In this document: positions 16,650 through 62,427 of the stretch, one piece after another | Layout: every line of letters begins with the position of its first letter | Numbering within the stretch: the stretch's first letter is position 1 | Assembly: GCF_045679555.1 (NCBI RefSeq) | Contig: NC_092087.1 | Location: 79,725,305-79,789,304, forward strand | Length of the DNA stretch: 64,000 nucleotides | DNA from: Salvelinus alpinus | Taxonomy: Eukaryota > Chordata > Actinopteri > Salmoniformes > Salmonidae | Direction of reading: 5' to 3' | Position numbers and translations under genes: made by a program | The notes under the pieces: generated by a model | Told to the model about the DNA's origin: nothing | Database searches by the model: none | The model's input: the letters and a program-made list of their open reading frames with translations, nothing else

Positions 16650-18434
16650 CTAGTGGTGGGTATGTGCTTGGTTCAGATATGCCAACGGGAGCATTTCCAC
16701 AGGCATAGCTTCTCTAGGAGTGTAGCGGGTTTGGGAGAAGACAGTTCTGCCATTCTTGTAGTGTGATTTGGAACCGATTTGGAACTGAGAACTACTAGAG
16801 GCACCACCTTCAGTGCTTTCGTAGTGCTTCTGCTGAGACATTGGGACCAGTTGCTGCTGGGGCATTCTGGCTACATGCCATAATTGCTGAGGAATGTGGT
16901 TCGGTTGCTGCTGGGGCATTTGAGCTGGATACCTCACTTGCTGGGCTTCGATGGCCAGGCCCTTCTGCTGCTGGGGTTCGATGGCCAGGCCCTTCTGCTG
17001 CTGGGGTTCGATGGCCAGGCCCTTCTGCTGCTGGGGTTCGACGGCCAGCTCCTGCTGCTGCTGGGGTTCGACGGCCAGCTCCTGCTGCTGCTGGGGTTCG
17101 ATGGCCAGCTCCTGCTGCTGCTGGGGTTCGACGGCCAGCTCCTGCTGCTGCTGGGGAAATTTAACTGGATGCCACATGAGAAGAGGCATCTGTGGCATGG
17201 CAGCCAGATGATTTTGCTGCTGGAGCATTTTAGCTCGATACCATACTTGCTGGGGTATAGACGTCAGTTCCTTCTGAGGTTCAGTGGGGGGTTGCGTCTG
17301 CTGCAGGGGCATTTGAGCTGGATGCCACACTTGCTGGGGCACGGCGGTCGGTTGCTTCTGCTGCAGGGGCATTTCAGCTGCATGCCACACTTGCTGGGGC
17401 ACGGCGGTCGGTTGCTTCTGCTGCAGGGGCATTTCAGCTGGATGCCACACTTGCTGGGGCACGGCGGTCGGTTGCTTCTGCTGCACGGGAATTTGAGCTG
17501 GATGCCACACTTGCTGGGGCAAGGCGGTCGGTTGCTTCTGCTGCAGGGGCATTTCAGCTGGATGCCACACTTGCTGGGGCAAGGCGGTCGGTTGCTTCTG
17601 CTGCAGGGGCATTTCAGCTGGATGCCACACTTGCTGCGGCACGGTGGTCGGTTGCTTCTGCTGCAGGGGCATTTGAGCTGGATGCCACACTTGCTGGGGC
17701 ACGGCGGTCGGTTGCTTCTGCTGCACGGGCATTTGAGCTGGATGCCACACTTGCTGGGTTACGGCTGTCGGTTGCTTCTGCTGCAGGGGCATTTGAGCTG
17801 GATGCCACACTTGCTGGGGCACGGCGGTCGGTTGCTTCTGCTGCAGGGGCATTTGAGCTGGAAGCCACACTTGCTGGGGCACGGCGGTCGGTTGCTTCTG
17901 CTGCAGGGGCATTTGCGCTGGATGCCACACTTGCTGGTTCATGGCAGTCAGTTGCTTCTGAAGTTCAGTGGCTGGTTGATTCTGGGGCATTTGAGCTTGA
18001 TATCTTACTTGCTGAGGTTGCTGGGACATGGGGGTAAGTTCCTTCCGCAGGATGGAGGCCGGATGTTTCTGTTGCGCTTTCATTTGAGCTGTTGGAGACT
18101 TATAATTGCCATATCCTAGAGATTTAAGTGATCCTGCATAGAGCCATGCTGCATTAGAACCCAGTGCAGGAGACCAATCACCTAGGTAAAAAAAAAATAT
18201 ATTAAAAAAAATGCCAGCCTTTTAAGGTTATGGAACAACGTAGCTGTCATTTGAAATGAACTCACCTTCTGATGTAGAACACATTATCCCTCCAATTAGC
18301 AGGCAACAAAGCCAAGAAACGCTTAAGGAAAAATAATATATGTTATAAACATAACTACCTGAAGGACAAGGGATACAAACTAAATCAAGACTTCTCAAAA
18401 CATACCTGAATGCAATTCCAATCATCGCAGCCAT
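16650..18434 (-). CDS. gene A: secreted Pro/Gln-rich repeat protein (type 1)
   Basis: Three coding exons: 18406-18434 (29 nt), 18266-18321 (56 nt) and exon 3 from 18181 to the stop at 16650. Lengths sum to 539 codons. Exons 1-2 encode a signal peptide (MAAMIGIAF, then [14 protein letters not shown]) split by a phase-2 intron. After EGDWSPALGSNAAWLYAGSL comes a Gln/Pro-rich region: eleven 20-residue units (QKQPTAVPQQVWHPAQMPLQ), seven 10-residue units (PQQQQELAVE or PQQQKGLAIE) and a C-terminal segment with SHYKNGRTVFSQTRYTPREA. Compared with gene C, about 7 bases are missing after PREAMPV, so the last dozen residues are in a different frame and stop early (HTHH). Further exons at 16518-16555 and from 16445 appear non-coding. 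No Cys pairs, enzymes or membrane segments are seen after the signal. Family unknown; Gln/Lys-rich repeats resemble cross-linked structural proteins in style only. Confidence 0.75.
16947..17155 (-). repeat. 30-bp tandem array, 7 units, in gene A
   Basis: Seven 30-base units begin TTCGATGGCC or TTCGACGGCC on the plus strand at about 16,947 and every 30 bases after. They encode 10-residue units such as PQQQQELAVE. The two sub-types (CCCTT or TCCTG in the middle) are grouped three then four, with few other differences, which points to recent expansion. Confidence 0.9.
17281..17940 (-). repeat. 60-bp tandem array, 11 units, in gene A
   Basis: Eleven consecutive 60-base units share GCATTTGAGCTGGATGCCAC and GGTCGGTTGCTTCTGCTGC on the plus strand. 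Each encodes one 20-residue unit on the minus strand. Neighbouring units differ at one to four bases. The period is a multiple of three, so loss or gain of units keeps the frame. Confidence 0.95.
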
Positions 18435-22142: not shown

Positions 22143-22411
22143 TGTGAGAGAGAAAGAGAAAAATAAAAAGAGAGAGAGCGAGTGACGAAGAGAAAGACAG
22201 AGGTGTGGGAAATTGATATCAAAATAGGCATGTGACAGTACATTAACTGTCTGTAGATATAGTCTGGTTATATGACTGAACATGAAAGGCTAATAATACA
22301 AAGATGTGATGCCAAGGTGTAGTTTTAACAAGTAACAAGTTGTAGTTTTAACAAGTGTAAATTTGCTGTCCAGGTATTTGTAATGCGAGTCAAGCAGGTG
22401 ATTTCTGATGG

Positions 22412-22707: not shown

Positions 22708-22839
22708 ATCAATTGAAGGTCAGCATTCTCATAATATGCAGTTAGTGAATGATTTCAGCAACAGTACTTGGTTTAGAAAAATGTACATGTTCAAAGACGA
22801 TCTGTTGCGTGTAGAGAATATTTGAGTTAATTGACATAT

Positions 22840-25800
22840 TCCCAACCAATTGTGTTTTTTGTTCGTTTCTTGAATTGTTTGGAACTTATTTTTTTACTTA
22901 TTTTGTACATAATGTTGCCGCTACCATCTCTCATGACCAAAAATAACTTCTGGACATCAGAACTGCGATTACTCACCACGGACTGGCAGAATCCTTTTTT
23001 TTCCTTTAACGAATCCGACAAGCCCGACGTGAATGACATACTGCTTTTCCGGGAACAGGCCCAGATCCCCGTGATTTGTGTGAAGAGAAGGTGGAGAAAA
23101 AGTGGCCAGAGGCTGGACTGCCTTCTGAGAATTAGTAGGCGATCGAATAAACCCCCACTTCCTTCCATTCTGCTAGCAAACGTGCAGTCTTTGTAAAGTA
23201 AAATAGATGACCTACGCGAAAGATTAAACAACCAACGGGACATTCAAAACTGTAATATCTTATGCTTTATGGAGTCGTGGCTGAACGACGACATTATCAA
23301 CATACAGCTGGCTATCCGGCAGGATAGAACAGCGGCGTCAGGTAAGACAAGGGGCGGTGGACTATGTATTTTTGTAAATAACAACTAGTGCACGATATCT
23401 AAGGAAGTCTCGAGCTATTGCCCTCCTGAGGTAGAATATCTCACGATAAGCTGTAGACCACACTATCTACCTAGAGAGTTTTCATCTGTATTTTTTGTAG
23501 CTGTCTACATACCAACACGGACTGAGGCTGGCACTAAGACCGCATTGAATGAACTGTATTCTGCCATAAGCAAACAGGAAAACGCTCACCTGGACATGGC
23601 GCTCCTAGTAGCCGGGGACTTGAATGCAGGGAAACTTAAATCCATCCTACCAAATTTCTATCAGCATGTTAAATGTGCAACCAGAGGGAAAGAAACTCTG
23701 GACCACCTTTACTCCACACACAGAGACGCATACAAAACTCTCCCTCACCCGCCATTTGGCAAATCTGACCATAATTCTATCCTCCTGATTCCTGCTTACA
23801 AGCAAAAATTTAAGCAGGACACACCAGTGACTTGATCAATAAAAAAGTGGTCAGATGAAGCAGCTGCTAAGCTACCGGACTGTTTTACTAGCACAGTCTG
23901 GAATATGTTCCGGAATTCCTCCAATGACATTGAGGAGTACACCACGTCTGTCATTGGCTACATCAATAAGTGCATCAATGACGTCATCCCCACAGTGACC
24001 GTACGCACATACCCCAACCAGAAACCATGGACTACAGGCAACATCTGCACTGAGCTAAAGGCTAGAGGTGCCGCTTTCAAGGAGCAGGACGCTAACCCGG
24101 AAGCTTATAATAAATCCCGCTATGCCCTCCGACAAACCATCAAACAGGCAAAGCATCAATACAGGACTAAGATCAAATCGTACTACACCGGCTCTGACGC
24201 TCGTCGGATGTGGCAGGGCTTGCAAACCTTTACAGACTATAAAGGGAAGCACAGCCGAGAGCTGCCCAGTGACACGAGTCTACCAGATGAGCTAAACTAC
24301 TTCTATGCTCGCTTCGAGGCAAATAACACTGAAACACGCATGAGAGCAAAAGCTGTTCAGGAAGACTGTGTGATCACGCTCTCTGCAGCCGATGAGTAAG
24401 ACCTTTAAACAGGTCAACATTCACAAGATCGCAGGGCTTGACGGATTACCAGGACATGTACTGCAAGCAGGTGCTGACCAACTGGCAAGTGTCTTCACTG
24501 ACATTTTCAACCTCTCCCTGTCCGTAATACCAACATGTTTAAAACAGACCACCATAGTCCCTGTGCTCAAGAACACTAAGGTAACCTGCCTAAATGACTA
24601 CCGACCCGTAGCACTTACGTCTGTAGCTATGAAGTGCTTTGAAAGGCAGGTCATGGCTCACATCAACACCATTATCCCAGAAACCCTAGACCCACTCCAA
24701 TTTGCATACCGCCCTAACAGATCCACAGATGACGCAATTTTATTGCACTCCACACTGCCCTTTCCCACCTGGACAAAAGAACACCCATGTGAGAATGCTA
24801 TTCTTTGACTACAGCTCAGCGTTCAACACCATAGTGCCCTAAAAACTCATCAATAAGCTAAGGACCCTGGGACTAAACACTTCCCTCTGCAACTGGATCC
24901 TGGACTTCCTGACTGGCTGCCCGCAGGTGGTAAGGGTAGGTAACAACACATCCACCACACTGATCCTCAACACAGGGGGCCATCAGGGGTGCGTGCCCAG
25001 TCCCCTCCTGTACTCCCTGTTCACTCATGACTGCATGGCCATGCACGACTCCAACACCATCATTAAGTTTGTTGACGACACAACAGTGGTAGGCCTGACC
25101 ACCGACAACGGCGAGACAGCCTATAGGGAGGAGGTCAGAGACCATGCCATGTGGTGCAAGGACAACAACCATTCCCTCAACGTGATCAAGACAAAGGAGA
25201 TGATTGTGGACTACAGGAAAGAGAGGACCGAGCATTCCCCTATTCTCATCGACGGGGCTGTACTGGAGCAGGTTGAGAGCTTCAAGTTCCTTGGTGTCCA
25301 AATCACCAACAAACTAACATGGTCCAAGCACACCAAGACAGTCGTGAAGCGGGCACGACAAAACCTATTCCCCCTCAGGAGACTGAAAAGATTTGGCATG
25401 GGTCCTCATATTCTCAAAATGTTCTACAGCTGCACCATCGAGAGTATCCTGACTGGTTGCATCACTGCCCGGTATGGCAACTGCTCAGCCTCCAACTGCA
25501 AGGCACTACAGAGGGTAGCGCGAACGGCCTAGTACATCACTGGGGCCAAGCTTCCTGCCATCCAGGGCCTCTATACCAGGCGGTGTCAGTTGTGTCAGGC
25601 CTTAAAAATTGTCAAAGACTCCAGCCACCCTAGTCATAGACTGTTTTCTCTGCTACCGCATGGCAAGCGGTACCGGAGCGCCAACTCTAGGTCCAAGAGG
25701 CTTCTAAACAGCGTCTACCCCCAAGGCATAAGATCCAGAACATCTAATCAAACGGCTACCCAGACTATTTGCATCCCCCCCTTTACACCGCTGCTACTTT

Positions 25801-26066
25801 CTATGGTTATCATCTATGCATAGTCACTTTAATAACTCCACCTACATGTACATATTACCTCAACTAACCGGTGCACCTGCACATTGACTCTGTACCACCC
25901 TGTATATAGTCTCGCTATTGTTATTTTACTGCTGCTCTTTAATTACTTGTTACTTTTATTTCTTATTTGTTTTTAACTGCATTGTTGTTTAGGGGCTCGT
26001 AAGTAAGTGTTTCACTGTAAGGTCTACACCTGTATTCGGTGCAATTGACTAATAAAATTTGATTTG
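22840..26066 (+). mobile_element. L2/Rex1-like LINE, copy 1
   Basis: This is a non-LTR retrotransposon with an endonuclease region (ANVQSL at about 23,180, LLVAGDLNAGK at 23,605, FGKSDHNSILLIPA at 23,755) and reverse transcriptase. The RT has [10 protein letters not shown] at 24,805, [19 protein letters not shown] at 24,980 and the catalytic box FVDDTTVVG at 25,070. It ends in AATAAAATTTGATTTGATG, the short TTGATT-type tail of this clade. The frame is interrupted several times (for example stops at 23,194 and 23,387), so it is dead. It shares its breaks with the copy at 45,688-48,914. The 5' end is approximate. Confidence 0.85.
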
Positions 26067-26287
26067 ATGCCTACCTATAACTACATCTAAAGTATGAACA
26101 TACTGTATGAGTAAGGTCTGACATTTCCCCACTGGATATTGACCATGTTAACATGAGCACAGCAGTCTGGATTGTAGCTCATATCCCACATACGGTCTTA
26201 TTCGGGATGAGCTCTTTACATGCACTTTTGATATCCCGCTCACGAGTATCCCTGTATCCAGGAATAAACAGAATATTCCTCATTTAA
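26067..26287. other. unit flank after the LINE
   Basis: Short flank shared with 48,915-49,135 and, at its start, with 15,034-15,054 plus 16,148 onward. No gene. Confidence 0.6.
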
Positions 26288-33393: not shown

Positions 33394-33923
33394 GTTTTAC
33401 AAGTAATGCAGGGTAGCATGAGCAGCAGCAACTCCCTGGCCGACGCAAAAGCATACAGTGGAAGCTTAGTGTCAGCAACAACTCAGAATTGTCAACCAAA
33501 GGATGAATCTACCATTGCAATTCTGTTGATAGATGATTAGTACAAAGGATTTCAAAATCAGAACGCAACGTTCAGATTAGTGTAAAAAAATGTACATGAC
33601 ATTGCATCCCAGTAGCTGTTCCCTTGTGGTGGGGTTTCTTTAGCAGGTTGTCAGTTTTTAGCAGGTGGGGATATGCTTGGTTCAGAGAAGCCAACGTCAC
33701 TACGGTCCTTGAGAGCATCTCCACTATCAAAAAGGTATAAACTCCCCAGTGGTGTGGCAGGTTTGGGAGTAGACAGTTTTGCCATTCTCATACACCGATT
33801 TGTAACTATATTGGGACGAGAACTGACTGTTCAAAGATGCTGCCTTGAACGCTGCTGGAGCTGACACATTGGGTGCTTTCATTGTCACCGTCAGACCGAA
33901 AATCCTGAGAAACATCACTGCTG

Positions 33924-35749
33924 CTAAAATCCATGTTTCTTGAGGAGTTGGCCCTCCTGTTCAAGGCCTGCGGCTCCTGCCGAGGCAAGGGCGCCTGCGG
34001 CTCCTGCCGAGGCAAGGGCGCCTGGCGAGGCAAGGGCTCCTGCCGAGGCAAGGGCGCCTGCCGAGGCAAGGGCTCCTGTGGCTCCTGCCGAGGCAAGGGC
34101 GCCTGTGGCTCCTGCCGAGGCAAGGGCGCCTGTGGCTCCTGCCGAGGCAAGGGCGCCTGTGGCTCCTGCCGAGGCAAGGGCGCCTGTGGCTCCTGCCGAG
34201 GCAAGGGCGCCTGTGGCTCCTGCCGAGGAAAGGGCGCCTGTGGCTCCTGCCGAGGCAAGGGCGCCTGTGGCTCCTGCCGAGGCAAGGGCGCCTGTGGCTC
34301 CTGCCGAGGCAAGGGCGCCTGTGGCTCCTGCCGAGGCAAGGGCGCCTGTGGCTCCTGCCGAGGCAAGGGCGCCTGTGGCTCCTGCCGAGGCAAGGGCGCC
34401 TGTCGCTCCTGCCGAGGCATTTGAACCAGATTCCGCACTTGATGAGGCAAAGTGGCCGGTTGCTTCACCTAAGTTATTTGGGCCAGTCGTGACGCTTGCT
34501 GAGGCATTGTGGGTGGCTGCTTCCGAGGCATTATGGGTGGCCGCTTGCGTGGCACTGTGTCCAGTTGCTTCCGCTGCCGAGGCATGGTGGCCAGTTGCTT
34601 CCGAGGCACCGTGGCCATTTGCTTCACCTAAGGCATTTAGGCCAGTCGTGACGCTTGATGAAGCATTGTGGCCAGTTGCTTCACCTAAGGTATTTGGGCC
34701 AGTCGTGACGCTTGCTGAGGCATTATGGGTGGCCGCTTGAGTGGCACTGTGTCCAGTTGCTTCCGCTGCCGAGGCCCCTTGGCCAGCTGCTTCACCTAAG
34801 GTATTTGGGCCAGTTGTAGCGCTTGATGAAGCATTGTGGCCAGTTGTTTCAGCTAAGGTATTTGGGCCAGTCGTGACACTTGAAGCATTGTGGCCAGCTG
34901 CTTCACCTAAGGTATTTGGGCCAGTCGTAGCGCTCGATGAAGCATTGTGGCCAGTTGCTTCAGCTAAGGTATTTGGGCCAGTCGTGATGCTTGCTGAGGC
35001 ATTGTGGGTGACTGCTTCTGCTGCTAAGGCACGGGATCCGGTTGCTCCACCTAAGGTATTTGGGCCGGTCGTGACGCTTGCTGAGGCATTGTGGGTGGCT
35101 GCTTCCGAGGCATTATGGGTGGCTGCTTGCGTGGCACTGTGTCCAGTTGCTTCCGCTGCCGAGGCACCGTGGCCCGCTGCTTCACCTAAGGTATTTGGGC
35201 CAGTCGTAGTGCTTGATGAAGCATTGTGGCCAGTTGCTTCAGCTAAGGTATTTGGGCCAGTCATGATGCTTGCTGAGGCATTGTGGGTGACTGCTTCTGC
35301 GGCACGGGATCCAGTTGCTCCACCTAAGGTATTTGGGCCAGTCGTGACGCTTGCTGAGGCATTACGGGTGGCTGCTTCACCTGCCGAGGCACGGGAGCCG
35401 GTAGCTTCCGCTGCATTGTGGCCAGTTCTTTTTAATTGATTTTGGGGAATATATCTATAATTACCTACAAAAGAAAATGAAGTTTCAAATCGTAAAATGC
35501 CAGCATTTGAAGTTCTGCCATTTATACAGTGTTACTTTTACTGAATTAAATGTGCAGAACAAAACACACCTTTAGGTGGAGGATAACAGGTTATCCCTCC
35601 AATTAGCAGGCAACAAATCCAAGAAATTCTAAATAAAAATAAAAACATCCTAGTCAGTTAAATACAGCTACCTGTAAAACATGGAAGACAAGGGAAACAA
35701 ACTAGAGCCATACAACTTACCTCAAAGACATTTCAAAACTCACAGCCAT
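33924..35749 (-). CDS. gene B: secreted Ala/Ser/Thr-rich, N-glycan-sequon repeat protein (type 2)
   Basis: Exons 35721-35749 (29 nt), 35570-35628 (59 nt) and 35464 down to the stop at 33924 sum to 543 codons. The signal peptide (MAVSFEMSL, then [14 protein letters not shown]) is split exactly as in genes A and C. After [17 protein letters not shown] the chain has diverged 20-residue units ([20 protein letters not shown]) holding at least 14 N-A-S sequons, then 9-residue units ASAGATGAL, and ends LKKHGF. The DNA is homologous to the type-1 Pro/Gln repeat but is read in another register. The old register is stopped by a recurrent TAG (about 11 times) yet this one is open throughout. The conserved family tail (YSYKSVYENGKTVYSQT, 33,727-33,860) lies downstream in another frame and is excluded. 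Predicted product: a heavily glycosylated secreted or mucin-like protein. It could instead be a frameshifted pseudogene kept open by repeat composition. Confidence 0.6.
33960..34420 (-). repeat. 27-bp tandem array in gene B
   Basis: About twelve near-perfect units of GGCTCCTGCCGAGGCAAGGG plus CGCCTGT occupy 34,081-34,404. Irregular copies with 12- to 15-base deletions fill 33,960-34,080. The unit has no stop in any of the three minus-strand frames: it reads [18 protein letters not shown] or CLGRSHRRP. Confidence 0.95.
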
Positions 35750-35759
35750 TTTTCTCATC

Positions 35760-36139
35760 AAACCTCAGTATTCAGAACTAATGGTAGCCAGAAGCCTTAC
35801 CAGGAGATCCCTGATATTTTATCTGATTGTCTTTTAGCTGTGCCTTACAAAGGAATCATAGACCCTTCTAATCTGGCTGGTTAATTAAGTACATCTGCAA
35901 GCCACTGAACATAATTTCCATTGGTCCAATTTCCCAATTGAGATTAGGTGCGCTTGATTTCATTCAGCTGGTGTGCTGGAGGGTTTGCGCTTCATGGACA
36001 AATCCAATGGTTTTAAAGAGTGAACTCTACCTACCCATTGCACTGGGTGAGCTTAATCAAGTGCACCTTTATTTCATGCTAATTAAGATCCTGCCAGGGG
36101 CTTTTGCAGGTGCAACCTCAGTGGTCCGGTAGAAGTGTG
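35760..36139. other. upstream flank of gene B
   Basis: This aligns with 53,125-53,520. It presumably holds the promoter of gene B, but I could not single out a TATA box with confidence. Confidence 0.5.
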
Positions 36140-36709
36140 TTGTGCAAAAATATATTTTAGATTTTTCAAAGTAGCCTCACTTTGCCTTGATTACAGCTTT
36201 GCACACTCTTGGCATTCTCTAAACCAGCTTCATCTGGAATGATTTTCCAACAGTCTTGAAGGAGTTCCCACATTTGCTGAGCACTTGTTGGCTGCTTTTC
36301 CTTCACTCTTTGGTCCAACTCATGCCAAACCATCTCAATTGGGTTGAGGTCGGGTGATTATGGAGGCCAGGTCATCTGATGCAGCACTCCATCACTCTCC
36401 TTCTTGGTCAAATAGACCTTACACAGTCTGGAGGTGTGTTGGGGTCATTGTCTTATTGAAAAACAAACGATAGTCCCACTAAGCGCAAACCAGATGGGAT
36501 GGCGTATAGCTACAGAATGTTGTGGTAGCCAGTGTACCTTGAATTCTAAAAATATCACAGACCGTGTCACCAGCAAAGCACCCCCACACCATCACACCTC
36601 ATCCTCCATGCTTCATGGTGGGAACCAGACATGCGGAGATCATCCGTTCAGCTACTCTGCATCTCACAAAGACACGGGGGTTGGTCTTGTTTTGGTTACT
36701 ACATGATTC
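36140..36709 (-). mobile_element. Tc1-like fragment, rearranged
   Basis: 36,140-36,685 is minus-strand Tc1 transposase text (plus-strand CTCAATTGGGTTGAGGTCGG) with many breaks. From 36,686 the text switches to the plus-strand 3' end of the same family (TTTTGGTTACTACATGATTC), so one end is inverted. The remaining 3' end is found at 37,979-38,088, beyond an insert. Confidence 0.7.
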
Positions 36710-36717
36710 CATATGTG

Positions 36718-37970
36718 ACTCACCACCTTCGGTCTTATGTAGTAAAATGTGAAATGGTGTTTTTTCTACATCTGCTAAAAGTAGAGACTCAGAGCTACAA
36801 AATGGTATATCATATACGGCATTTGAGGAACAATGGTAAAGTACTTCTGCTTTGAAAGTTGATCAACTTTTAATCTCACTTTTGAGAAAATCCCCTTTGA
36901 ATGTTTTGGTATCTAGTTTAGAGCTCTTCTTTGTCTACACCCATTCAGCATCGTTCACACCCTCTTAATAAGCTTTAGCCCCACCCATCTTGTTTCGCTT
37001 TCAGAGCACACACTTGACGCTCTGGCCGATGATTTGTTTACCTCTGGATAACATGAAAACAGCCTAACCAGTTCTGCTGAATACAATTTCATGACTCTTT
37101 CTTGCAGACGTTTACTGACACCGGCCATATTCAACGGGTGTTGTACACACGTCACGTAGCGTTAGCTAACGAGCCAGCCAGCTAACGTCAGCTAGTTAAA
37201 CAATGAATAAAGTGGCAACAATGCCACAGTGCTGGGAGCTAACCAACCAGGTCCAATGTTAGCTAGCTAACATTAGGCTCTAACTAGACAAGCAAACGGC
37301 TCTGGGAAACAAATAATAACGTCAGCTAGGGAACCAGCCAGCTAACAGTACACTTAGCGTGAAATGAAACCACTTTGTCAAAATTAGAAATGTGTCATAT
37401 CTGAAAATGTAGTTAGCTAATGCTAGACTATAAACATGCATCATGGACGCATCTCCCTGTCATGAATGCCATACCACGGTTGCACGGTTTGAAGATGTAA
37501 TCCGGAGACAGGTGTTTTCTCCATCTCTTTAGCTATCATACTCTAATTCCACTGATTTTCTCCAGAAAACGGAGAGCAACACTTATGCAGCTCCACTATA
37601 CAAAACTTTTTTTTTAAAGCGGCGTTCGACAGGATTACCAAAACAGACTGACGAGCTCAACTAGACAGACAACTTCAATGGCAGACCAATCCGAACTCCT
37701 CTCGCTGCATGTCCAGCCCACTCATTATCTCAGACAATCATGGCTAGTGAGAAGTTTGCTTACTTTTACTGTGGCTTAACCAGCAAGGCTCATAATTTAA
37801 CAATTGTATTTGTATTTACAGATGGCATACATGTTTGTTATTAAGGCAGATGAAAGTTCACATGTTCGAGAAGGAATTTCTGCCAAAAACGCATTTTGAT
37901 TTTTACGTTCAAACGGCTCTCCTGTGAAGTCGTGACTTGCGACATACGCCTAGTTTCCTGAATCAGGTCA
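36718..37970. mobile_element. unclassified 1.25-kb insert with 8-base target repeat
   Basis: The insert splits a Tc1 3' end and is flanked by CATATGTG at 36710-36717 and 37971-37978. It contains many GCTAAC/GTTAGC motifs (37,155-37,430) and a minus-strand frame 36955-37155 (MAGVSKRLQERVMKLYSAEL) conserved in the copy at 54,332-54,532. The termini show only weak inverted similarity (ACCTGGATTCGG in the 54-kb copy against ACCTGATTCAGG). The 8-base duplication suggests a hAT-type element, not proven. Confidence 0.6.
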
Positions 37971-38518: not shown

Positions 38519-41290
38519 CTAGAGGATGAATCCATTCCTGTTGATAGATCTATGGTTAGTACAAAGGACTTCCAATTCAGAGCAAAGTTCAGAGCAGGTT
38601 AAAGTTACCCATTACCTTTCAGAATCCTTCACTAGTGGTGGATATATGCTTGGTTCACCAATGCCAACATAACTGTCCTTGGGAGCATTTCCACTGTCAA
38701 CAGGCATAGCCTCCCTAGGAGTGTAGCGGGTTTGGGAGAAGACAGTTCTGCCATTCTCGTAGTGTGATTTGGAACTGTAGGAATAGATTGGGATGACACC
38801 AGACTGTTCAACAATGCTGGCCTGAGAGCTACCAGAGGCACCACCTTCAGTGCTTTCGTGGTGCTTCTGGACCATTTTAGCTGGATACCACACGTCGTGA
38901 GGCTGCTGGGGCATAGGGGCCGATTGCTTCTGTGCCAGATGCCACACTTGCTGAAGCATGGCAGCCGGTTGCTTATGCTGCTGGGACGTTTGAGCCGTTT
39001 GCCACAGTTGTTGGGGTATGCCAGTCAATTCCTTCTGAGGTAGATGCATAGGGGCTGGTTGCTTCTGGGAAAATTGAGCTGGATGCCACACTTGCTGAGG
39101 TGGCTGGGGAATGGCGGTCAGTTCAATTTGCTGCTGCGGTTCAGCGGCCGGTTGCTTCTGCAGCTGGGACTTTTGAGCTGGATGCAACACGTCCGGGGGC
39201 ATGGTGGCTGGTTGCTTCTGCAGCATGGTGGCCAGTTGTTTCTGCAGCTGGGGCATTTGAGCTGGATGCAACACGTCCGGGGGCATGGTGGCTGGTTGCT
39301 TCTGCAGCATGGTGGCCAGTTGTTTCTGCTGCTGGGGCATTTGAGCTGGATACCATGCATGCTGGGGTGGCTGGGGAATGGTGGTCAGTGCTATTTGCTG
39401 CTGAGGTTCAGCGGCCGGTTGCTTCTGCAGCTGGGGCTTTTGAGCTGGATACCATGCATGCTGGGGTATAGCTGTTGGTTGTTTCTGCAGTAAAAGCATT
39501 GGGGCCAGTTGCTGTTGGGGCATTTGAGCTGGATACCACTCTTGCTGGGGCATGGCGGTCAGTTGCTTCTGTGGTAAAGGCATTGAGGCTGGTTGCTTCT
39601 GCTCCTGGGGAAATTGAGCTGGATGCCACACTTGCTGAGGTGGCTGGGGAATGGTGGTCAGTGCTATTTGCTGCTGAGGTTCAGCGGCCGGTTGCTTCTG
39701 CAGCTGGGGCTTTTGAGCTGGATACCATGCATGCTGGGGTATAGCTGTTGGTTGTTTCTGCAGTAAAAGCATTGGGGCCAGTTGCTTCTGCTCCTGGGGA
39801 AATTGAGCTGGATGCCACACTTGCTGAGGTGGCTGGGGAATGGTGGTCAGTGCTATTTGCTGCTGAGGTTCAGCGGCCGGTTGCTTCTGCAGCTGGGGCT
39901 TTTGAGCTGGATACCATGCTTGCTGGGGTATGGCGGTCAGTTCCTTCTGCCGCCGAGTTGCAGCGGCTTGTTGCTTCTGGACCATTTTAGCTGGATACCA
40001 GACATCGTGAGGCTGCTGGGGCATGGGGGCCAATTGCCACACTTGCTGAAGCATGGCAGCCGGTTGCTTATGCTGCTGGGGCATTTGAGCGGATTGCAAC
40101 AGTTGTGGCGGAATGGCGGTCAGTTCCTTCTGCGGTTGATGCATAGGGACTGGTTGATTCTGGGGAAATTGAGCTGGATGCCACACTTGCTGAGGTGGCT
40201 GGGGCATGGCAATCTGCTGCTGAGGTTCAACGGCCGGTTGCTTCTGCCGCTGGGGCTTTTGAGCAGGATACCACACTTGCTGGGGCATGGCAGTCAATTG
40301 CTTTAGCAGCATTTGAGCTGGATGCAACACTTGCTGAGGTTGCTGGGTTATGGCGGCAGGTTCCTTCTGCTGCTGAGGTTTAGTAGCTAGTTGCTTTTGC
40401 TGCTGAGGCATTTGAGCTGGATGCCACACTTGCTTGGGCATGGTGGCCGGTTGCTTCTGGGGTGGACGCATTAGGGCTGGTTGCTTGTGCTGCATTTGAG
40501 CTGGATACCATACTTGCTGGGGCATAGCTGTTGGTTGTTTCTGCGGTATAGGCATTGGAGCCGGATGCTTCTGGGGCATGGTAGTCAGTTCCTTCTGCTG
40601 CTGAGGACCAGTAGCTGGTTGCTTTTGCTGCTGGGGAATTTGAACTGTATACCACACTTGCTGAGGTAGCTGGGGTATAGAGGCCTGTTCCTTCTGATGC
40701 TGAAGTACAGTAGCTGGTTGATTCTGGGGCATTTGAGCTGGATACAACACTGCTTGAGGCTGCTTAGGATAACTGGCCGGTAGAGTCTGCTGTTGGGTCA
40801 TGGCGGCCGGTTGCTTTTCCTGCAGGGGCATTTGAACTGGATACAACATTTTCTGAGGTGCCTGGGGCATGGGGGCCAGTTGCTTTTGCAGGATGGCAGC
40901 CAGATGTTTCTGTTGCTCTTCGGTCAGCTGCGCTTGTAAGGGAGCTGTTGGAGAGTTGTAATTACCATATCCTTTAGACCTAAGTGAGCCTGCATAGAGC
41001 CATGCGGCATCAGAACCTGGTGCAGGACTCCCATCACCTAGGTTAGAATAAAGTAAAGTAAAATGCCAGCCTTTGAAGTCATTGGAACCACAACTACTAT
41101 TTGAAATGAATGTGTAGAAACTCACTTGATGTAGAACAGGTTATCCCTCCAATTAGCAAGTAACAAAGCCAAGAAACTCTTAAGGGGAAAAAAGTATGTT
41201 ATAAACATAGCTACCTGAAGGACAAGGGAAACAAACTAGATCAATACTTTCAAAAACCTACCTGAAAGCGATTCCAATTATCACAGCCAT
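38519..41290 (-). CDS. gene C: secreted Pro/Gln-rich repeat protein (type 1), intact
   Basis: Exons 41262-41290 (29 nt), 41126-41178 (53 nt), 38616-41037 (2,422 nt) and 38519-38537 (19 nt to the stop) sum to exactly 841 codons with GT/AG borders. The signal peptide (MAVIIGIAF, then [14 protein letters not shown]) is followed by SDGSPAPGSDAAWLYAGSL. About 700 residues of imperfect repeats follow (QQVWHPAQFPQ, KQPAAEPQQQIALTTIPQ). The C-terminal domain carries EQSGVIPIYSYSSKSHYENG, SQTRYTPREAMPVDSGNAP and LVKDSERNGFIL. The tail is conserved in A and E, and in B and D out of frame, so it is the best family marker. The protein is Gln/Pro/Lys-rich with almost no Cys after the signal. It is likely secreted and disordered. 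Role unknown; egg coat, skin or mucus structural protein are possibilities without direct support. Confidence 0.8.
39050..40980 (-). repeat. imperfect 60-bp-based repeats with 273-bp higher-order copies in gene C
   Basis: The repeat region is built from units of about 45-66 bases related to the 60-base unit of gene A. A larger block of 273 bases (91 codons) recurs: TGAGCTGGATACCATGCATG at 39,441 recurs at 39,714, and the following text also matches. A second duplication (CAACACGTCCGGGGGCATGG) lies at 39,185 and 39,269. All periods seen keep the frame. Confidence 0.8.
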
Positions 41291-41299: not shown

Positions 41300-43339
41300 C
41301 AAAACCTCCACGGTAATCAGAACTGGCAAGCTTTTTGGTTCCTCCTTTAAATCAAATCCCAGACCCTTCTAATGTCATTGGATAATTAAGGACAGCTGTA
41401 AGCCCCTGAACTACATTTGAGTCCTAATTCCAAATTGACCCCTAAATCCTTCACCCTGGACTAAACACTTCTGTGAATCAGAAATGATTGAATAGGTATA
41501 AGCAATATGGCCACAATTGCATCCAGCCTATCAGAAGGCAAGGTGAAGCAATTTCCATATTGCTTTAACCTATCTGATCGTTTCAAATGCCCATAAGTGA
41601 CTAAGTGGTAGGTGTAGGGGCTAGGGGTTGATTTGGAATTCAGAAATTTACTCAGGTGTGGTTGATTCTCTAATTGAGTTCCTGACAGGTTTGACAGCCC
41701 TTACTCTAAAGCACACTTCAAACTCATTACACAGAGGGCCAAGTGTCTGTGGGTTTTCGTTCCTTCCTTGTACTTGATTGCTGAATTAAGGCCACTAATT
41801 ACTCCCCTCACCTACAGTAGTTGTCTAGGTCTTAATTGAAAGTTTAAAAAAACAAAAACCTACAGACACTAGACCCTCCATGGAATGAGTTTGACACCCC
41901 TGCTCTAAAGTTGGAAACAAATTTTGTCTTGGCACTTCATTGATCGGTTTAAATTATTGCTTGTACAAAATTCACTTGGTTCATTTGAAGATTAGAGACT
42001 AAATGAACAGTTAGGCACCACTATTTTACACATGCCTTTTAAACAGTGTGTTTCATTCAGCATAGCAACATTAGATGATTAACATGTTTCAGTTGCACCT
42101 AGTGCAACATCTTGGACAAATTCTGAAATCAGACAGACGCCAGTTAAACACTCACATTATGCAAACACACCACACACTTATGCTTTTGATGATCTGAGTC
42201 TTTAATTTTTCAGAGGCAAACATATAGTAGGGCTCGTTTGAGTGGCAGGGCTAAAGCAACTGACTGTAGACCAAAGTCAAGAAGTAAAGTCAGGAGAGGT
42301 GCATCTGCGACAACCGAAATTTGGATACTAATGTTGTTTTCCAACAGCAAGGCTCAGATCACCATGGCAGTGTTGCCATTGTTTATAAAAGGTTTCGTTT
42401 ATAATGTCAAAAAAACATGTCTCCAACACCCACTCACAAACTGAAATAATTTGTGTGTACATTATACAATCAATAAATGAGAGAGAGCCTCAATCACATC
42501 ATTCATTTATGCACTGTAGGCTACACATTAACTGCAGCAAATTGGTTCCTGTTTCAGTCATGTTTTTGTTCGCGTGGGTCAAACAAAAACACTAATGATT
42601 GGTTGACAATGGAGCCCCCACATGACAGGTGATGGCTGCAGGATGAAGTTGGTGAAGAGCAATTGCAGAAACTTGGAGTTTCTGCAGATTTTTGTAAAGT
42701 TTATGCAGTCGACATATAGACTCAAGTCGGAAATGTTTCATCCCCAGAAAGCAACACACTTTGAAAGGCGGTGACCAACAATTGTCACCGACTTGACAAT
42801 AGTGATCAGCTCGAAGGTGCCCACTATCTCCATAAAATGTCTCCCTCATGTGGATGAAATAAAACACAAGACAACAACCCATCACATCATCCTCTGACCG
42901 TCTACCCTCCTTTATGGAAGCATTTTTTTCCAATGTTGTCTCAGCTTTGATTGCAGTACACATCCACAAACACATAAACTCGAATGCAACTGTTTAGATA
43001 GCTATGCATATATCTCCAGCCCCCTTAAATCTGCCAAAGTGTTTTCCCTATTCCGACTGATGGTTCCGCTTTGCATTCCATCTCTGATAATTATACTTGA
43101 TTTCAAGTCTGTGCCTTGAAAATTCCAATCTCCTTTTCTTCTCCTGTCTCTTTCAGCACAGCAGGCAGACATTCTGTTCTTTTATATTCACCCCAAGTGC
43201 TCCAATCCTTCTTTACTTTATTGTACGGCCCTTAATGTCTAGAAATCTGCACTAACTCCCCTCTTCCACTGCTGTAGGCTGGCCTACTGTAACTGGAACG
43301 CAAATGTATGTCACTTAAATCAGACCTGGGTTCAAATAC
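41300..43339. other. upstream flank of gene C (duplicated)
   Basis: This matches 18,460-20,510. It contains the hAT-type miniature element at 41,712-41,902 and the same non-coding frames. No gene is supported. Confidence 0.6.
41712..41902. mobile_element. hAT-type miniature foldback element, second copy
   Basis: Same element and target as 18,897-19,084, with CTCTAAAG at 41704-41711 and 41903-41910. It was copied with the segment, not inserted independently. Confidence 0.85.
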
Positions 43340-44007
43340 TATTTAAAATATTTCAATCAATTTCAAATACATTCAAAGAAAGTATTCTGATCTTTTATTT
43401 GAAAAGATAAGTTAAATGTTATGTATTTGGAAATAAACTTGGAAAGTGTTTGAAAAACTCAAAATCACACACTAATTGACACTCTAATGTATTAAATAAG
43501 TATTTGAAAATACTGTCAAATAATACAATTTGTATTATAACCCAGATATAACCCAGATACTGAAATACACATGTTTTTGAACACAGGTCTGCACTTAAAT
43601 GTAGCATTTGCATGTAAACACACAAAGATGTATTGTATTGTAGTATACTGCATCATATTTTATTGTATTTGTTGTTTCTTTGCGATTGCATTTGAAATCC
43701 TCAACTGTTATTTTTTCTGAAGACAGATTCCAATTCTTCTTTCTCTGTTAGACCCTCCAGGCCCTATTAGTCTACTGAGGTCAGTCAGTTGCGATTGTAA
43801 CCATCACATCCAAAATCTCAGTGGTGAGTAGCCACTGAGCTGTTGTCAACTCGCAGATGGCAGACTTGCCCTCACATAAACACACACCATGCCCACCAGA
43901 GCACACACATAGCCTACATAAGATTCAGGCAGAAATCAATACTGACTCCAAAACAGACACAATTATTATCACAAAGCTAATTATTTACATTCATTTATTT
44001 GTTTATT

Positions 44008-44990
44008 TTACAACTCAGTTTTAGGATAAGGTACTACTGCCTGCTTCACCTCCTAAAATTAAGGAAAAAGTATTTGGGAAGCAATGTAGATAGATTATAT
44101 AGAGGAAACTCAGTATAATTTACTGCCTCTTTCTATATATTATCAAAGCCACTGAAATGTATACTGCTCCATAGACATGGGTTCAAAATGAATTTGTTTC
44201 TTTCAAATACTTTTTTAGCTGCTCTCATCTGTCACTCCAGGCAGGCTCAATCAACCCTCAAAGGCATTTGAAAGAAAACCAATACTATTTGAACTCAGGT
44301 TTGTTTTCACCTCAGACATTGAGATCGCCTCTTATGAGTGAGTGGAGATCTCTCCCTCGGGCATGAGCCATTTCATGTCTGACACGCCGTCCTAAATGCC
44401 CACCCGGGGAAGGTCACGTGACATCAGGCCGAAGCAGCACAGAGATTTTTCATTGGACTTCACCCTGTTTACCAGCACAAACAGGAACTGTGACAAATAA
44501 ATCATAGTTATGTTCAGTAGGGCACAGCGTAGCAAAACGTTCTGCAACCAAAACTAAAACCAGTGGTTTTATTGGACGAGTAGTTCAATATATATATGAA
44601 TTTTGTTGATGGGCAGTTCCTTATCTCCTGCATTTGGTAAGGGTTTTCACAGTTCACAGAGCAGTTCAAAACATCTGACTCCAATTAATCAATTTACAAA
44701 TTCAATTCAAGCTGCAATTAAAGAGTTGATTCAAAATAACTTGTTCCAAATAGTGGATTAGGGACATTATCTTAAGATCTGAATCAAATAGCCAATAAAA
44801 TAGAGGTTTTGGTGAGTTGCTCTTTTCAGGTCCAGTAGATGCTTGCCTGCTTTCACCTTTTCAACAAACTCTGGGACCAGAGCTCCTGACCTAGCCGGTC
44901 CTTGAGCACTTCATAGTCACCACTCCCCCTGTTGATGAAGAGCAGGATGTGCCCCTTCACCTCTGACTGGTACAGACCCACTGCTGTCTG
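44008..44990 (-). pseudogene. erp27 pseudogene, copy 2
   Basis: I see no difference from the copy at 21,160-22,142: same KTEL tail, same stop after DLPRVGI, same frame-shifting insertion and the same loss of the b-domain exons. Confidence 0.85.
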
Positions 44991-45262
44991 TGTGAGAGAG
45001 AAAGAGAAAAATAAAAAGAGAGAGAGCGAGTGACGAAGAGAAAGACAGAGGTGTGGGAAATTGATATCAAAATAGGCATGTGACAGTACATTAACTGTCT
45101 GTAGATATAGTCTGGTTATATGACTGAACATGAAAGGCTAATAATACAAAGATGTGATGCCAAGGTGTAGTTTTAACAAGTAACAAGTTGTAGTTTTAAC
45201 AAGTGTAAATTTGCTGTCCAGGTATTTGTAATGCGAGTCAAGCAGGTGATTTCTGATGGAAA

Positions 45263-45555
45263 TTTTGGACGGTTGCTTCTGCCGAGTCATTGTGGACGGT
45301 TGCTTCTGCTGAAGAGGCATGCGAGCCCGCTCCTTTTGTTGCTGGGACATAGGAGCAGGTTCCTTTTAATGAAGTGTGGAGAATATATCTATAATTTAAC
45401 AAAGACAAAAAACAAAGACAAAAAGTTCAAAATAGTAAAATTCCAGAATTTGAAGTCATTGGAACTATACAAATGCTGTTTTTTTTTACTTAATTAATTT
45501 GTGTATAACAAACAGCTTTAGGTATAGGATAACAGGTTGTCCCTCCAATGAATAG
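45263..45555 (-). pseudogene. repeat-protein family fragment, copy 2
   Basis: Second copy of the erp27/repeat-gene fusion at 22,412-22,707, with the same lost acceptor and truncated exon 2. Confidence 0.75.
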
Positions 45556-45687
45556 ATCAATTGAAGGTCAGCATTCTCATAATATACAGTTAGTGAATGA
45601 TTTCAGCAACAGTACTTGGTTTAGAAAAATGTACATGTTCAAAGACGATCTGTTGTGTGTAGAGAATATTTGAGTTAATTGACATAT

Positions 45688-51175: not shown

Positions 51176-53117
51176 TCAAAAAGGTATAACCTCCCCAGTG
51201 GTGTGGCAGGTTTGGGAGTAGACAGTTTTGCCATTCTCATACACCGATTTGTAACTATATTGGGATGAGAATTGACTGTTCAAAGATGCTGCCTTGAACG
51301 CTGCTGGAGCTGACACATTGGGTGCTTTCATTGTCACCGTCAGACCCAAAATCCTGAGAAACATCACTGCTGCTAAAATCCATGTTGCTTGAGGAGTTGG
51401 CCTTCCTGTTCAAGGCCTGTGGCTCCTGCCGAGGCAAGGGCGCCTGTGGCTCCTGCCGAGGCAAGGGCGCCTGTGGCTCCTGCCGAGGCAAGGGCGCCTG
51501 TGGCTCCTGCCGAGGCAAGGTGCGCCTGTGGCTCCTGCCGAGGCAAGGGCGCCTGTGGCTCCTGCCGAGGCAAGGGCGCCTGTGGCTCCTGCCGAGGCAA
51601 GGGCGCCTGTGGCTCCTGCCGAGGCAAGGGCGCCTGTGGCTCCTGCCGAGGCAAGGGCGCCTGTGGCTCCTGCCGAGGCAAGGGCGCCGTTGGCTCCTGC
51701 CGAGGCAAGGGCGCCTGTGGCTCCTGCCGAGGCTTTTGAACCAGATTCCGCACTTGATGAGGCATTGTGGCCGGTTGCTTCACCTAAGGTATTTGGGCCA
51801 GTCGTGGCGCTTGCTGAGGCATTATGGGTTGCTGCTTCTGCTGAGGCACGGGAGTCGGATACTTCACCAAAGGCATTTGTGCCAATCGTGAATTTTGATG
51901 AAGCATTGTGGCCAGTTGCTTCCCCTAAGGTATTTGGGCCAGTCGTGACGCTTGCTGAAGCATTGTGGGTGGCTGCTTCCGAGGCATTATGGGTGGCCGC
52001 TTGCGTGGCACTGTGTCCAGTTGCTTCCGCTGCTGAGGCATGGTGGCCAGTTGCTTCCGAGGCACCGTGGCCATTTGCTTCACCTAAGGTATTTGGGCCA
52101 GTCGTGACGCTTGATGAAGCATTGTGGCCAGCTGCTTCACCTAAGGTATTTGGGCCAGTCGTGACATTTGCTGAGGCATTGTGGGTGGCTGCTTCCGAGG
52201 CATTACGGGTGGCCGCTTGCGTGGCACTGTGTCCAGTTGCTTCCGCTGCCGAGGCATGGTGGCCAGTTGCTTCCGAGGCACTGTGGCCATTTGCTCCACC
52301 TAAGGTATTTGGGCCAGTCGTGACGCTTGATGAAGCATTGTGGCCAGTTGCTTCACCTAAGGTATTTGGGCCAGTCGTGACGCTTGCTGAGGCATTATGG
52401 GTGGCCGCTTCCGAGTCATTACGGGTGGCAGCTTGCGTGGCACTGTGTCCAGTTGCTTCCGCTGCCGAGGCATTATGGGTGGCCACTTGCGCGGCACTGT
52501 TGCCAGTTGCTTCCGCTGCCGAGGCACTGTGGCCAGCTGCTTCACCTAAGGTATTTGGGCCAGTCGTGGCGCTTGATGAAGCATTGTGGCACGTTGCTTC
52601 AGCTAAGGTATTTGGGCCAGTTGTGACGCTTGATGAAGCATTGTGGGTGGCTACTTCTGCTGCTGAGGCACGGGTTCCGGTTGCTCCACCTAAGGTATTT
52701 GGGCCAGTCGTGACACTTGCTGAGGCATTAAGGGTGGCTGCTTCACCTGCCGAGGCACGGGAGCCTGGTAGCTTCCGCTGCATTGTGGCTAGTTCCTTTT
52801 AATTGATTTTGGGGAATATATCTATAATTACCTACAAAAGAAAATAACGTTTCAAATCTTAAAATGCCAGCATGTGAAGTTCTGCCATTTATACAGTGTT
52901 ACTTTTACTGAATTAAAATTTGCAGAACAAAACATACCTTTAGGTGGAGGATAACAGGTTATCCCTCCAATTAGCAGGCAACAAATCCAAGAAATTCTAA
53001 ATAAAAATAAAAACATCCTAGTCAGTTAAATACAGCTACCTGTAAAACATGGAAGACAAGGGAAACAAACTACAGCCATACAACTTACCTCAAAGACAAT
53101 TCAAAACTCACAGCCAT
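51176..53117 (-). pseudogene. gene D: type-2 repeat gene, frame-disrupted
   Basis: Exon 1 (53089-53117) and exon 2 (52938-52996) match gene B with intact splice sites and signal peptide (MAVSFELSL, then [11 protein letters not shown]). Exon 3 starts at 52831, but one extra base relative to gene B (ACCAGGCTCC against ACCGGCTCC, about 52,764) makes the spliced frame stop within about 30 codons. Beyond that base the N-A-S-rich register is open for some 450 codons (52,783 to 51,410). A further one-base gain at about 51,519 shifts register inside the 27-bp array. The family tail (YSYKSVYENGKTVYSQT) is at 51,185-51,310. It is either a recent pseudogene or carries an assembly error at those two bases. 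Confidence 0.65.
51415..51735 (-). repeat. 27-bp tandem array in gene D
   Basis: About twelve units of the same 27-base sequence as in gene B, with one extra base at about 51,519 and one variant unit at about 51,685. Confidence 0.9.
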
Positions 53118-53119
53118 TT

Positions 53120-54083: not shown

Positions 54084-54091
54084 CATATGTG

Positions 54092-56885: not shown

Positions 56886-57108
56886 TTAACTAGGCAAGTC
56901 AGTTAAGAACAAATTCTTATTTACAGTGACCGCCTACTTGTACAGCCCACCGGCCAAACGCCTAACCCGGACGACGCTGGGCCAATTGTGCGCTGCCCTA
57001 TAGGACTCCCGATCACAGCCATTTGTGATACAGCCCTGATCGAACCCTGGTCTGTAGCGACGCCTCTAGCGCTGCAGTGCCTTAGACTGCTGCACCACTC
57101 GGGAGACC
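56886..57108 (-). mobile_element. tRNA-derived salmonid SINE (HpaI-like), tail split
   Basis: On the minus strand it begins CTCCCGAGTGGTGCAGCAGT at 57,106, with polymerase III A- and B-box-like text (GTGCAGCAGTCTAAGG and GGTTCGATCAG). It ends AATAAGAATTTGTTCTTAAC plus TGACTTGCCTAGTTAA. The rest of its AT-rich tail is at about 55,137-55,153, across the TTAA element. The tail resembles that of the LINE at 31,490-31,540. Confidence 0.8.
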
Positions 57109-57356
57109 TTCTTGCTGGGGCATAGGAGCCGGTTCCTTTTGTTGCTTTGGAATAGGAGCTGGTGTCTTTTTATATCCATAATTACATAGGAACCAAGAAA
57201 ATTCAGCATAGTAAAATGCCATCATTTATTAGTTATTGGCACTATACAAAGTGTTATTTTAACTGAATTACTTTGTATAGCACACACACACCTTTAGGTG
57301 GAGGATAGCAGGTTATCCCTCCAATGAACAGGCAACAAATCCAAGGAATAATACAT
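57109..57356 (-). pseudogene. repeat-protein family fragment 3
   Basis: Minus strand: a few codons of exon 3 repeat, an exon-3 border with its AG lost, an intron like gene B's, and exon 2 (about 57,293-57,350; TGCCTGTTCATTGGAGGGAT region). It is cut at 57,357 by LINE sequence, so exon 1 is missing. Confidence 0.7.
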
Positions 57357-60723: not shown

Positions 60724-61875
60724 CTTGCAGAATCCTTCACTAGTGGTGGTATATGCTTGGTGCACCAATGCCAACATAACTGTCCTTGGGAGCATTTCCA
60801 CTGTCAACAGGCATAGCCTCCCTAGGAGTGTAGCGGGTTTGGGAGAAGACAGTTCTGCCATTCTCGTAGTGCGATTTGGAACTGTAGGAATAGATTGGGA
60901 TGACACCCGACTGTTCAACGATGCTGGCCTGAGAGCGACTAGAGGCACCATCTTCAGTGCTTTTGTAGTGCTTCTGCTGAGACATTGGGGCCAGTTGCAT
61001 CTGGGGCATTTGAGCTACATGCCATAATTGCTGAGGCATGGGGTCAGTTGCTGCTGTGGCATGGCAGTGTGTTGCTTCCGCTGCTGGGACATTTGAGCTG
61101 GATTCCTCACTTGCTGGGGTATGGTGACCGGTTCGTTCTGCTGCGGTTCAGCAGCCGGTTTCTTCTGCGGTATTTGAGCTGGTTGCCACTCTTGCTGAGG
61201 CATGTCGGTCAGTTGCTTCTGCGGTAGAGGCATGGAGGCCAGTTGCTGCTGGGACATTTGAGCTGGATACCACACTTGCTGGGGTACGGTGGTCGGTTGC
61301 TCCTGCGGTAGAGGCGTGGAGGCCGGTTGCTTCTGCTGCTGGGGAAATTGAGCTGGATGCCACACTTGCTGATGCGTCTGCGGCATGGCGGTCAGTGCAG
61401 CGACTTGTTGCTTATGGACCATTCTACCTGGATACCACATCTCGTGAGGCTACTGCACCAGATGCCACACTTGCTGAAGCATGGCAGCCGGTTGCTTATG
61501 CTGCTGGGGCATTTGAGCTGTTTTCCACAGTTGTTGGGGTATGGCAGTCAGTTCCTTCTGCGGTAGATGCATAGGGGCTGGTTGCTTCTGCTCCTGGGGA
61601 AATTGATCTGGATGCCACACTTGCTGAGGTGGCTGGGGCATGGCGGTCGGTTCAATTTGCTGCTGAGGTTCAGTAGCTGGTTGTTTTTGCTGCTGAGGCA
61701 TTTGAGCTGGATGCCACGCTTGCTGGGGCATGGTGGCCTGTTGCTTCTGCGGTTGACGCATTGTGGCTGGTTGTTTCTGCTGCTGGGGCATTTGAGTTGA
61801 ATACCATGCTTGCTGCGGTATAGCTGTTGGTTGTTTCTGCAGTATAGGCATTGGGGCCAGTTGCTGCTGGGGCAA
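60724..61875 (-). pseudogene. gene E: type-1 repeat gene, 5'-truncated
   Basis: Only exon 3 is left. Its 3' part is well kept: IVEQSGVIPIYSYSSKSHYE, SQTRYTPREAMPVDSGNAP, and a GT donor at 60,723. Upstream the repeat frame is broken near 61,030 and 61,445, giving three offset open stretches. At about 61,875 the repeat text (CAGTTGCTGCTGGGGCA) runs straight into unit flank, so exons 1-2 and the promoter are gone. Exon 4 is also missing on the other side. Confidence 0.8.
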
Positions 61876-62427
61876 AAAACAAAAACACTAATGATTGGTT
61901 GACAATGGAGCCCCCACATGACAGGTGATGGCTATAGGATGAAGTTGGTGAAGAGCAATTGCAGAAACTTGGAGTTTCTGCAGCTTTTTGTAAAGTTCAT
62001 GCAGTCGACATATAGACTCACGTCGGAAATGTTTTATCCCCAGAACGCAACACACTTTGAAAGGCGGTGAACAACAAATGTCACCGACCTGACAATAGTG
62101 ATCAGCTTGAAGGTGCCCACTATCTCCATAAAATGTCTCCCTCATGTGGATGAAAAAAAACACAAGACAGCTACCCATCTCATCATCCTCTGACCGTCTA
62201 CCCTCCTTTGTGGAAGCATTTTTTCCTAATGTTGTCTCAACTTTGATTGCAGTACACATCCACAAACACAAACTCGAATGCAAATGTTTAGATACCTATA
62301 TCTCCAGCTCCATTAGTGTTTTTGTTTGACCCACGCGAACAAAAACATGACAGAAACAGGAACCAACTTGCTAAAATTAATGTGTAGCCTACAGTGCATA
62401 AATGAATGATGTGATTGAGGCTCTCTC
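61876..62427. repeat. unit flank with a foldback inversion
   Basis: 61,876-62,310 equals 42,587-43,020 in direct orientation. 62,311-62,427 equals the reverse complement of about 42,480-42,597. The text ACAAAAACACTAATG therefore occurs near 61,880 and inverted at 62,312. The third copy of a 127-codon minus frame (61,888-62,283) lies here. Confidence 0.8.

Follow-up and report, generated by a model that had tools for sequence, protein, structure and literature searches.

The window analysed here is a 64,000-nucleotide stretch (64 kb) of the Salvelinus alpinus genome (NCBI RefSeq assembly GCF_045679555.1, contig NC_092087.1, positions 79,725,305 to 79,789,304 of the forward strand), and all coordinates below are counted from its first letter. 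Its minus strand carries a cluster of related repeat genes, designated A, B, C, and D, together with the relics E and F (Table 1). In the type-1 genes A and C, the start codon and signal-peptide exon are followed by an exon 3 rich in Pro and Gln, while B and D are built from type-2 repeat units. The subject of this analysis is gene B, which joins a homologous signal-peptide exon to the same ancestral repeat read in another register, called new here, the register of A and C being the old one.

The repeat gene cluster and its apparent duplication

Table 1. Positions of the genes, relics, and component features of the cluster
Feature	Positions	Strand	Description	Basis
Gene A	16650..18434	-	Type 1, Pro/Gln-rich, 538 residues, old register	Spliced translation
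Gene B	33924..35749	-	3 exons, 542 residues, new register	Spliced translation
B exon 1	35721..35749	-	Start codon and first residues	Donor AG/gtaagt
B exon 2	35570..35628	-	Hydrophobic signal-peptide core, CYPPPK at end, phase-1 junction G/GT to exon 3
B exon 3	33924..35464	-	512 new-register codons and TAG	Spliced translation
Register-change stretch of B	35421..35438	-	IPQNQ (old) upstream, GHNA (new) downstream	Placed by inspection
B type-2 array	34420..35420	-	57-base units with 24- to 30-base parts; IP-stop in old register
B 27-base array	33966..34419	-	GATGALASA in new register, PRQEPQAPL in old
Relic of ancestral C-terminal region	33640..33923	-	Old register, past the new stop of B
AATAAA	33388..33393	-	Possible polyadenylation signal of B
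Gene C	38612..41290	-	Type 1, Pro/Gln-rich, 835 residues (exons 1-3), old register	Spliced translation
Gene D	51380..53117	-	Segmental-duplicate copy of B; exons 53117-53089, 52996-52938, 52831 onward
Relic E	57108..57349	-	Type-2-like exon 2 (CYPPPKG), exon 3 start NYGYKKTPAPIPKQQKEPAPMPQQE in old register	By inspection
Relic F	60740..61887	-	Broken type-1 copy, internal TAG near 61450, frameshift near 61045	By inspection

The cluster appears to have grown by duplication. Segments 18519-26287 and 41333-49135 match at 98.2%, segments 35101-37753 and 52461-55135, which hold B and D, match at 95.4%, and the 3' ends of C (38588-38869) and F (60696-60976) share 95.0% identity, whereas A and C match at only 76-79%. 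By these figures, B and D are evidently recent copies of each other, and A reads as an older paralogue outside the tandem units. The layout is that of an apparent tandem duplication of 18519-41324 and 41333-61874, in which unit 1 would consist of B and C and unit 2 of D, E, and F; reverse-transcriptase remnants are carried by both units. Between the duplicate copies, 234 substitutions were counted over 11755 bases (2.0%) in seven realigned stretches outside coding exons. The type-2 units within B differ from one another by 13.5% on average and the flanks of B and D by 2.0%, so the array predates the B/D duplication.

No Pfam family was matched by the type-1 proteins A and C, no name for the type-1 family was found among the articles listed by literature searches for it or its setting, and a search of solved structures, conducted for gene C only, returned one match (E 0.11) that was not used. 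Scanning viral_contigs for the type-2 unit motif gave 0 matches, and inspection for 5' exons of F recognised none.

Structure of gene B and the register of its repeats

Both introns of B are GT-AG introns, with donors AG/gtaagt and AAAG/gtgtgt and with ttcttttgtag preceding exon 3, and intron phases 2 and 1 are common to A, B, and C. The initial annotation had claimed that the splice-defined frame of B reads the other register, and this holds, with exon 3 falling exactly at 35464-33924. The signal-peptide exon, homologous to that of A and C, thereby joins 512 codons rich in Ala, Gly, Thr, and Ser, among them the 27-base array, which is part of the new-register protein. In exon 3, the new register has 0 stops before its terminator, the old register 15, and the third sense register 18, while the antisense registers have 31, 4, and 15. 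The open frame described by the initial annotation is therefore present, although its length of 513 codons includes the stop. The units themselves had been given as 60 bases long; they are mainly 57 bases, accompanied by 24-, 27-, and 30-base parts, with residue lengths mainly of 19, 16, 10, 8, and 9. As a side observation, CTTAGGTGAAG occurs six times in B exon 3 on the minus strand (35180-35190, 34901-34911, 34790-34800, 34679-34689, 34622-34632, and 34463-34473); these sites resemble a splice acceptor combined with a donor, and splicing among them would be frame-keeping and could vary the length of the protein.

The homology of the two unit types, also proposed at the outset, is borne out by local alignment scores far above shuffled controls. 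Against C the type-2 score is 54, where 300 single-base shuffles average 19.7 and reach 31 at most; against A it is 46, the shuffles there averaging 18.7 with a maximum of 31. In the main alignment blocks, codon position 3 of type 1 sits under codon position 1 of type 2, and the suggested correspondence of HNAS with TMPQ proves correct on inspection (CAC AAT GCC TCA against C ACA ATG CCT CA). The repeated TAG that had been noted in the old register recurs at one unit site in 11/11 long B units and in 9/10 long D units listed, one further D unit at the array edge being left out of that count. The type-1 counterpart of the old-register unit is, for example, KQPTAMPQQVWHPAQMPQ in the C consensus, where inspection places a type-1 CAG at the type-2 TAG.

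The point and direction of the change can be read from neighbouring sequence. Exon 3 of B begins with NYRYIPQNQ, whose register is that of MPQNQ in A and C, and enters the new register a few codons on, within the register-change stretch, across which the net change is a loss of 2 or a gain of 1, modulo 3. Relic E has a damaged splice acceptor and is cut just past the old-register start of its exon 3 by a sequence that we take to be SINE-like (short interspersed nuclear element); since its type-2 signal exon is still followed by old-register sequence, that register is the ancestral one in the type-2 branch and the shift is derived. The ancestral C-terminal region is still visible in the old register past the new stop in both B and D. 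Compared with C, this tail has a stop and frame-breaking gaps of 8 and 1 bases, with further inserts that depend on the alignment (16 and 4 in one, 5 and 2 in another), and inspection recognised no exon 3 splice donor in the tail relic of B. The tail of A (16650-16830, minus strand) likewise differs from that of C, by gaps of 36 and 12 bases and a third of 7 or 8, and A ends in a different tail; because it too has drifted, an altered tail is not peculiar to type 2.

At the level of sequence, then, unit homology, the different register, and the splice-anchored open frame are established, with the old register dead in B and D and read in A, C, and E. The observation of a frame-shifted register is confirmed with the corrections above, including one that concerns D. 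The initial annotation had paired B and D as type-2 genes; D is not open from its signal peptide and ends at 58 residues.

Counted from residue 30, with the cleavage site assumed, the chain of B consists of 29.0% Ala, 15.4% Gly, 13.5% Thr, and 12.3% Ser, with Ser and Thr together accounting for 25.7%; it contains 14 N-glycosylation sequons, no Asp, and no Cys, and Asn-Ala-Ser is kept in all 21 long units listed. The natural guess for such a product would be a secreted, disordered, O- and N-glycosylated mucin-like protein. The glycoprotein proposed by the initial annotation agrees with the Ser/Thr composition and the sequons, and goes beyond them by supposition. A Pfam search with a B query led by 22 intron residues gave a Collagen match just below the cut-off, with no stretch passing alone, and this match was set aside as a composition effect.

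Probable retention of the new frame

On balance, B is probably a frame-switched paralogue whose new frame was kept at least until the B/D duplication. The proposed course would begin with the duplication of a Pro/Gln-rich secreted repeat gene, after which the start of exon 3 in one daughter (~35421-35438) would have shifted by a net one register, placing the signal peptide in frame with the Ala/Gly/Thr/Ser/Asn-rich register of the repeats. The old register would then have acquired a fixed TAG in place of the type-1 CAG, and with this stop copied through the array as the repeats were amplified, the switch would have become hard to undo. The new frame would have been maintained at least up to the duplication of the locus, and D would since have decayed. 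We infer that B is transcribed and translated.

Four lines bear on selective retention of the new frame, none of them decisive: substitutions give it no support, and indels, exon 2, and the stops of the type-1 genes give indirect support. The spacing of successive unit landmarks is a multiple of 3 in every case (11/11 in B, 8/8 in D), and the 21 long units show 44 parsimony changes with 0 new-register stops and 0 frame-breaking indels; the two frame-breaking insertions of D fall outside these units. The flanking indel rate was taken from the duplication stretches outside coding exons, where 30 of 37 indels (<=30 bases) are not multiples of 3, 27 of them outside simple repeats, per 234 substitutions. 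At this rate, 5.1 frame-breaking indels would be expected in the tree of 21 units (P 0.006 for the 0 seen; 0.078 at half the rate). Because slippage in tandem arrays favours whole units, the indel evidence is treated as suggestive.

Exon 2 offers a second contrast. Since the split from E, the B/D branch has 0 changes in 48 comparable columns of exon 2, compared with 6 changes in 51 columns of intron 2 (one-sided Fisher P 0.016, two-sided 0.027), and all four exon 2 differences between B and E map to E. Stops in the type-1 genes point the same way. In type-1 exon 3, the matching register is interrupted by 16 stops in gene A and by 24 in gene C; within the repeat part, A has 8 (415 codons) and C has 12 (683 codons), compared with 0 in 512 in B (Fisher P 0.0016 and 0.0018, respectively, although repeat codons are not independent). 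The type-1 stops are partly mutual copies and B has grown from few founder units, so this contrast is weaker than its P values. Three units, B167, B782, and D174, acquired old-register stops in addition to the shared one. The length of the open frame alone was rejected as evidence, as only ~0.8 stops would be expected over 46 distinct long-unit variants and other registers are also long in places (antisense 469 codons in D). That antisense open frame extends over the D array at 51393-52802 on the plus strand.

A number of results weigh against retention by selection. Unit length divisible by 3 keeps a register open cheaply, the flank indel rate may not hold for tandem arrays, A and C differ in length at the end of exon 2, which leaves the alignment imperfect there, and the frameshift may be younger than part of the B/D branch. 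Within the units, synonymous substitutions are not enriched in the new register: B unit variants have 8 synonymous and 15 nonsynonymous changes (7.5 synonymous expected), D unit variants 13 and 22 (10.2 expected), and B and D units together 16 and 30 (13.8 expected, P 0.29). The comparison by codon position, in which the initial annotation had named equal rates as a result that would refute its reading, is flat, with unit-tree changes at positions 1/2/3 of 8/9/9 in B, 8/9/12 in D, and 11/16/17 in both. Across 364 alignable exon 3 bases, B and D differ by 10/6/9 changes at the three positions, of which 17 are nonsynonymous and 8 synonymous. The antisense register in D units has a ratio of nonsynonymous to synonymous rates (dN/dS) of 0.47 (P 0.02), below every sense register; this is probably chance and demonstrates how noisy the test is. 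The control gene A, taken as coding, is equally flat (17/13/13, dN/dS 0.83), so the codon-position test decides little for these repeats, while a signal is present in gene C (dN/dS 0.50, P 0.011).

Decay is also frequent at the locus. Spliced like B, D ends after its 58 residues owing to a one-base insertion at 52766, and a further one-base insertion relative to B lies at 51521. E and F are broken as well, and B may merely be a copy so far unhit. At 52766, D has an extra A and B follows the unit consensus, on which ground D is taken to be the derived copy; as the sequence stands, D is disabled, unless the assembly is wrong there.

These observations leave room for an alternative that is doubtful yet quite possible: B and D would both be pseudogenes, the shift having killed the gene and a stop-free founder unit of length divisible by 3 having been multiplied by slippage and unequal exchange. 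The truncation of D, the lack of a codon-position or dN/dS signal, the decayed E and F nearby, and the decayed ancestral tail would all follow, and the absence of new-register stops from the 46 unit variants is no evidence to the contrary, so few being expected. Such a history accords less well with long units free of frame-breaking indels, with a B/D branch that has changes in intron 2 and none in exon 2, and with the canonical splice sites and AATAAA of B. The intactness of B and C in unit 1, set against the broken D and F of unit 2, would likewise fit the loss of a redundant unit.

Very unlikely, by comparison, is an assembly off by one base at the start of exon 3 in B or D, such that the register of one is artificial. 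Repeats are hard to assemble, and B and D differ by one base exactly there; nevertheless, B matches the unit consensus at that base, and the recurrent old-register stop in the long units of both genes leaves the old register dead whatever the local base. Scarcely credible is the persistence of an old-register product through an unrecognised intron; with the 57-base array spliced out, the signal peptide would lead into the old-register 27-base array and the C-terminal region (open reading frame 33806-34468). The old register is indeed open there for 220 codons, ending in the ancestral tail relic, but the acceptor-like CTTAG/G unit sites, when joined to exon 2, keep the new register, and the tail carries the stop and frame-breaking gaps relative to C described above. 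For the reading of B as a frame-switched paralogue, the switch itself, its direction, and the splice-anchored register claimed by the initial annotation all stand, and selective retention draws indirectly on indels, exon 2, and the stops of A and C; its functional interpretation is, on the sequence, partly supported.

If B is translated, a repeat gene can survive a register change over nearly its whole length, because amplification in the new register is possible for any stop-free unit whose number of bases is a multiple of 3. This would offer a route, open to testing, by which fish could gain low-complexity glycoproteins and Ala-rich proteins, and with the states before, after, and in decay together at one locus, the order of steps is readable.

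Comparison with known systems and the neighbouring gene

New genes are known to arise when a duplicate undergoes a frameshift, and the shifts on record mostly affect short ends of proteins; what is unusual here is that nearly the whole mature chain has changed and that progenitor-type genes adjoin. In Guo et al. 2022 (PMC8872073), 80 frameshifted duplicates are described in human, mouse, zebrafish, and fly, with expression confirmed for 78/80. Their shifted regions are short, with a mean relative length of 0.16 for type C with outgroup and generally under 20%, and for the shifted regions of derived copies the pooled Ka/Ks, calculated on the original frame, is 1.087, so that a flat ratio is not unusual there. 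B resembles type C, being a duplicate with its frame changed downstream of a frameshift while original-frame copies are present; it departs from those cases in having ~500 of its 542 codons read in the new register and in encoding a repeat array, and it would be an extreme case among duplicates of this type. Among the features of frameshifted duplicates, those found here are recognisable DNA homology of the paralogues, a different register with outgroups A, C, and E giving the direction, and an open frame intact in B and broken in D.

A frameshift origin is also reportedly that of a sculpin antifreeze protein. For the Ala-rich type I antifreeze proteins, such an origin was proposed (PMC3855684, citing Evans and Fletcher 2005), with no progenitor found. 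The Pro/Gln-rich gene at the present locus similarly reads Ala-rich after a shift; unlike in that case, progenitor-type and derived genes stand side by side, and there is no hint of ice binding. It is tentatively suggested, as a prospect somewhat short of even, that one net frameshift made nearly the whole mature chain of B into a new Ala/Gly/Thr/Ser/Asn-rich glycoprotein with an N-glycosylation site per long unit, accompanied at the locus by progenitor-type genes, a pre-shift relic, and a decaying copy. Progenitor and derivative would then form a pair of the kind that was proposed, and not found, for Ala-rich fish proteins.

Codfish antifreeze glycoproteins consist of Thr-Ala/Pro-Ala tripeptides, and PMC8622921 places their origin in non-coding DNA. 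As far as that source and PMC12684174 describe them, B resembles these proteins in bearing a signal peptide, in its Thr/Ala-rich and fast-changing repeats, and in being clustered with pseudogenes. In contrast, B units are mainly 19 and 9 residues long without a tripeptide array, and their origin lies in a coding repeat. Genes of the secretory calcium-binding phosphoprotein (SCPP) family have phase-0 introns, unlike the phases 2 and 1 of A, B, and C. Hyosophorin, or polysialoglycoprotein, is a class of repeat proteins whose salmonid tridecapeptide repeat contains Asp, unlike the chain of B from residue 30, the two being compared by composition alone. These are fish egg glycoproteins with N- or O-linked chains (PMC9630641). 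The portions available of PMC9122973 and PMC13079451 added nothing decisive for the locus.

Outside the repeat cluster, a thioredoxin-like (ERp27-like) gene lies at 2284-3697 on the minus strand. Pfam Thioredoxin_6 is matched by each of its three exon pieces, although one falls short of the curated cut-off. The piece at 3149-3697 also matches ERp27 (PDB 4f9z, E 5.9e-06). Degenerate partial thioredoxin-like copies, with stops and frame breaks, are located inside the duplicated segments at 21440-22424 and 44288-45272.
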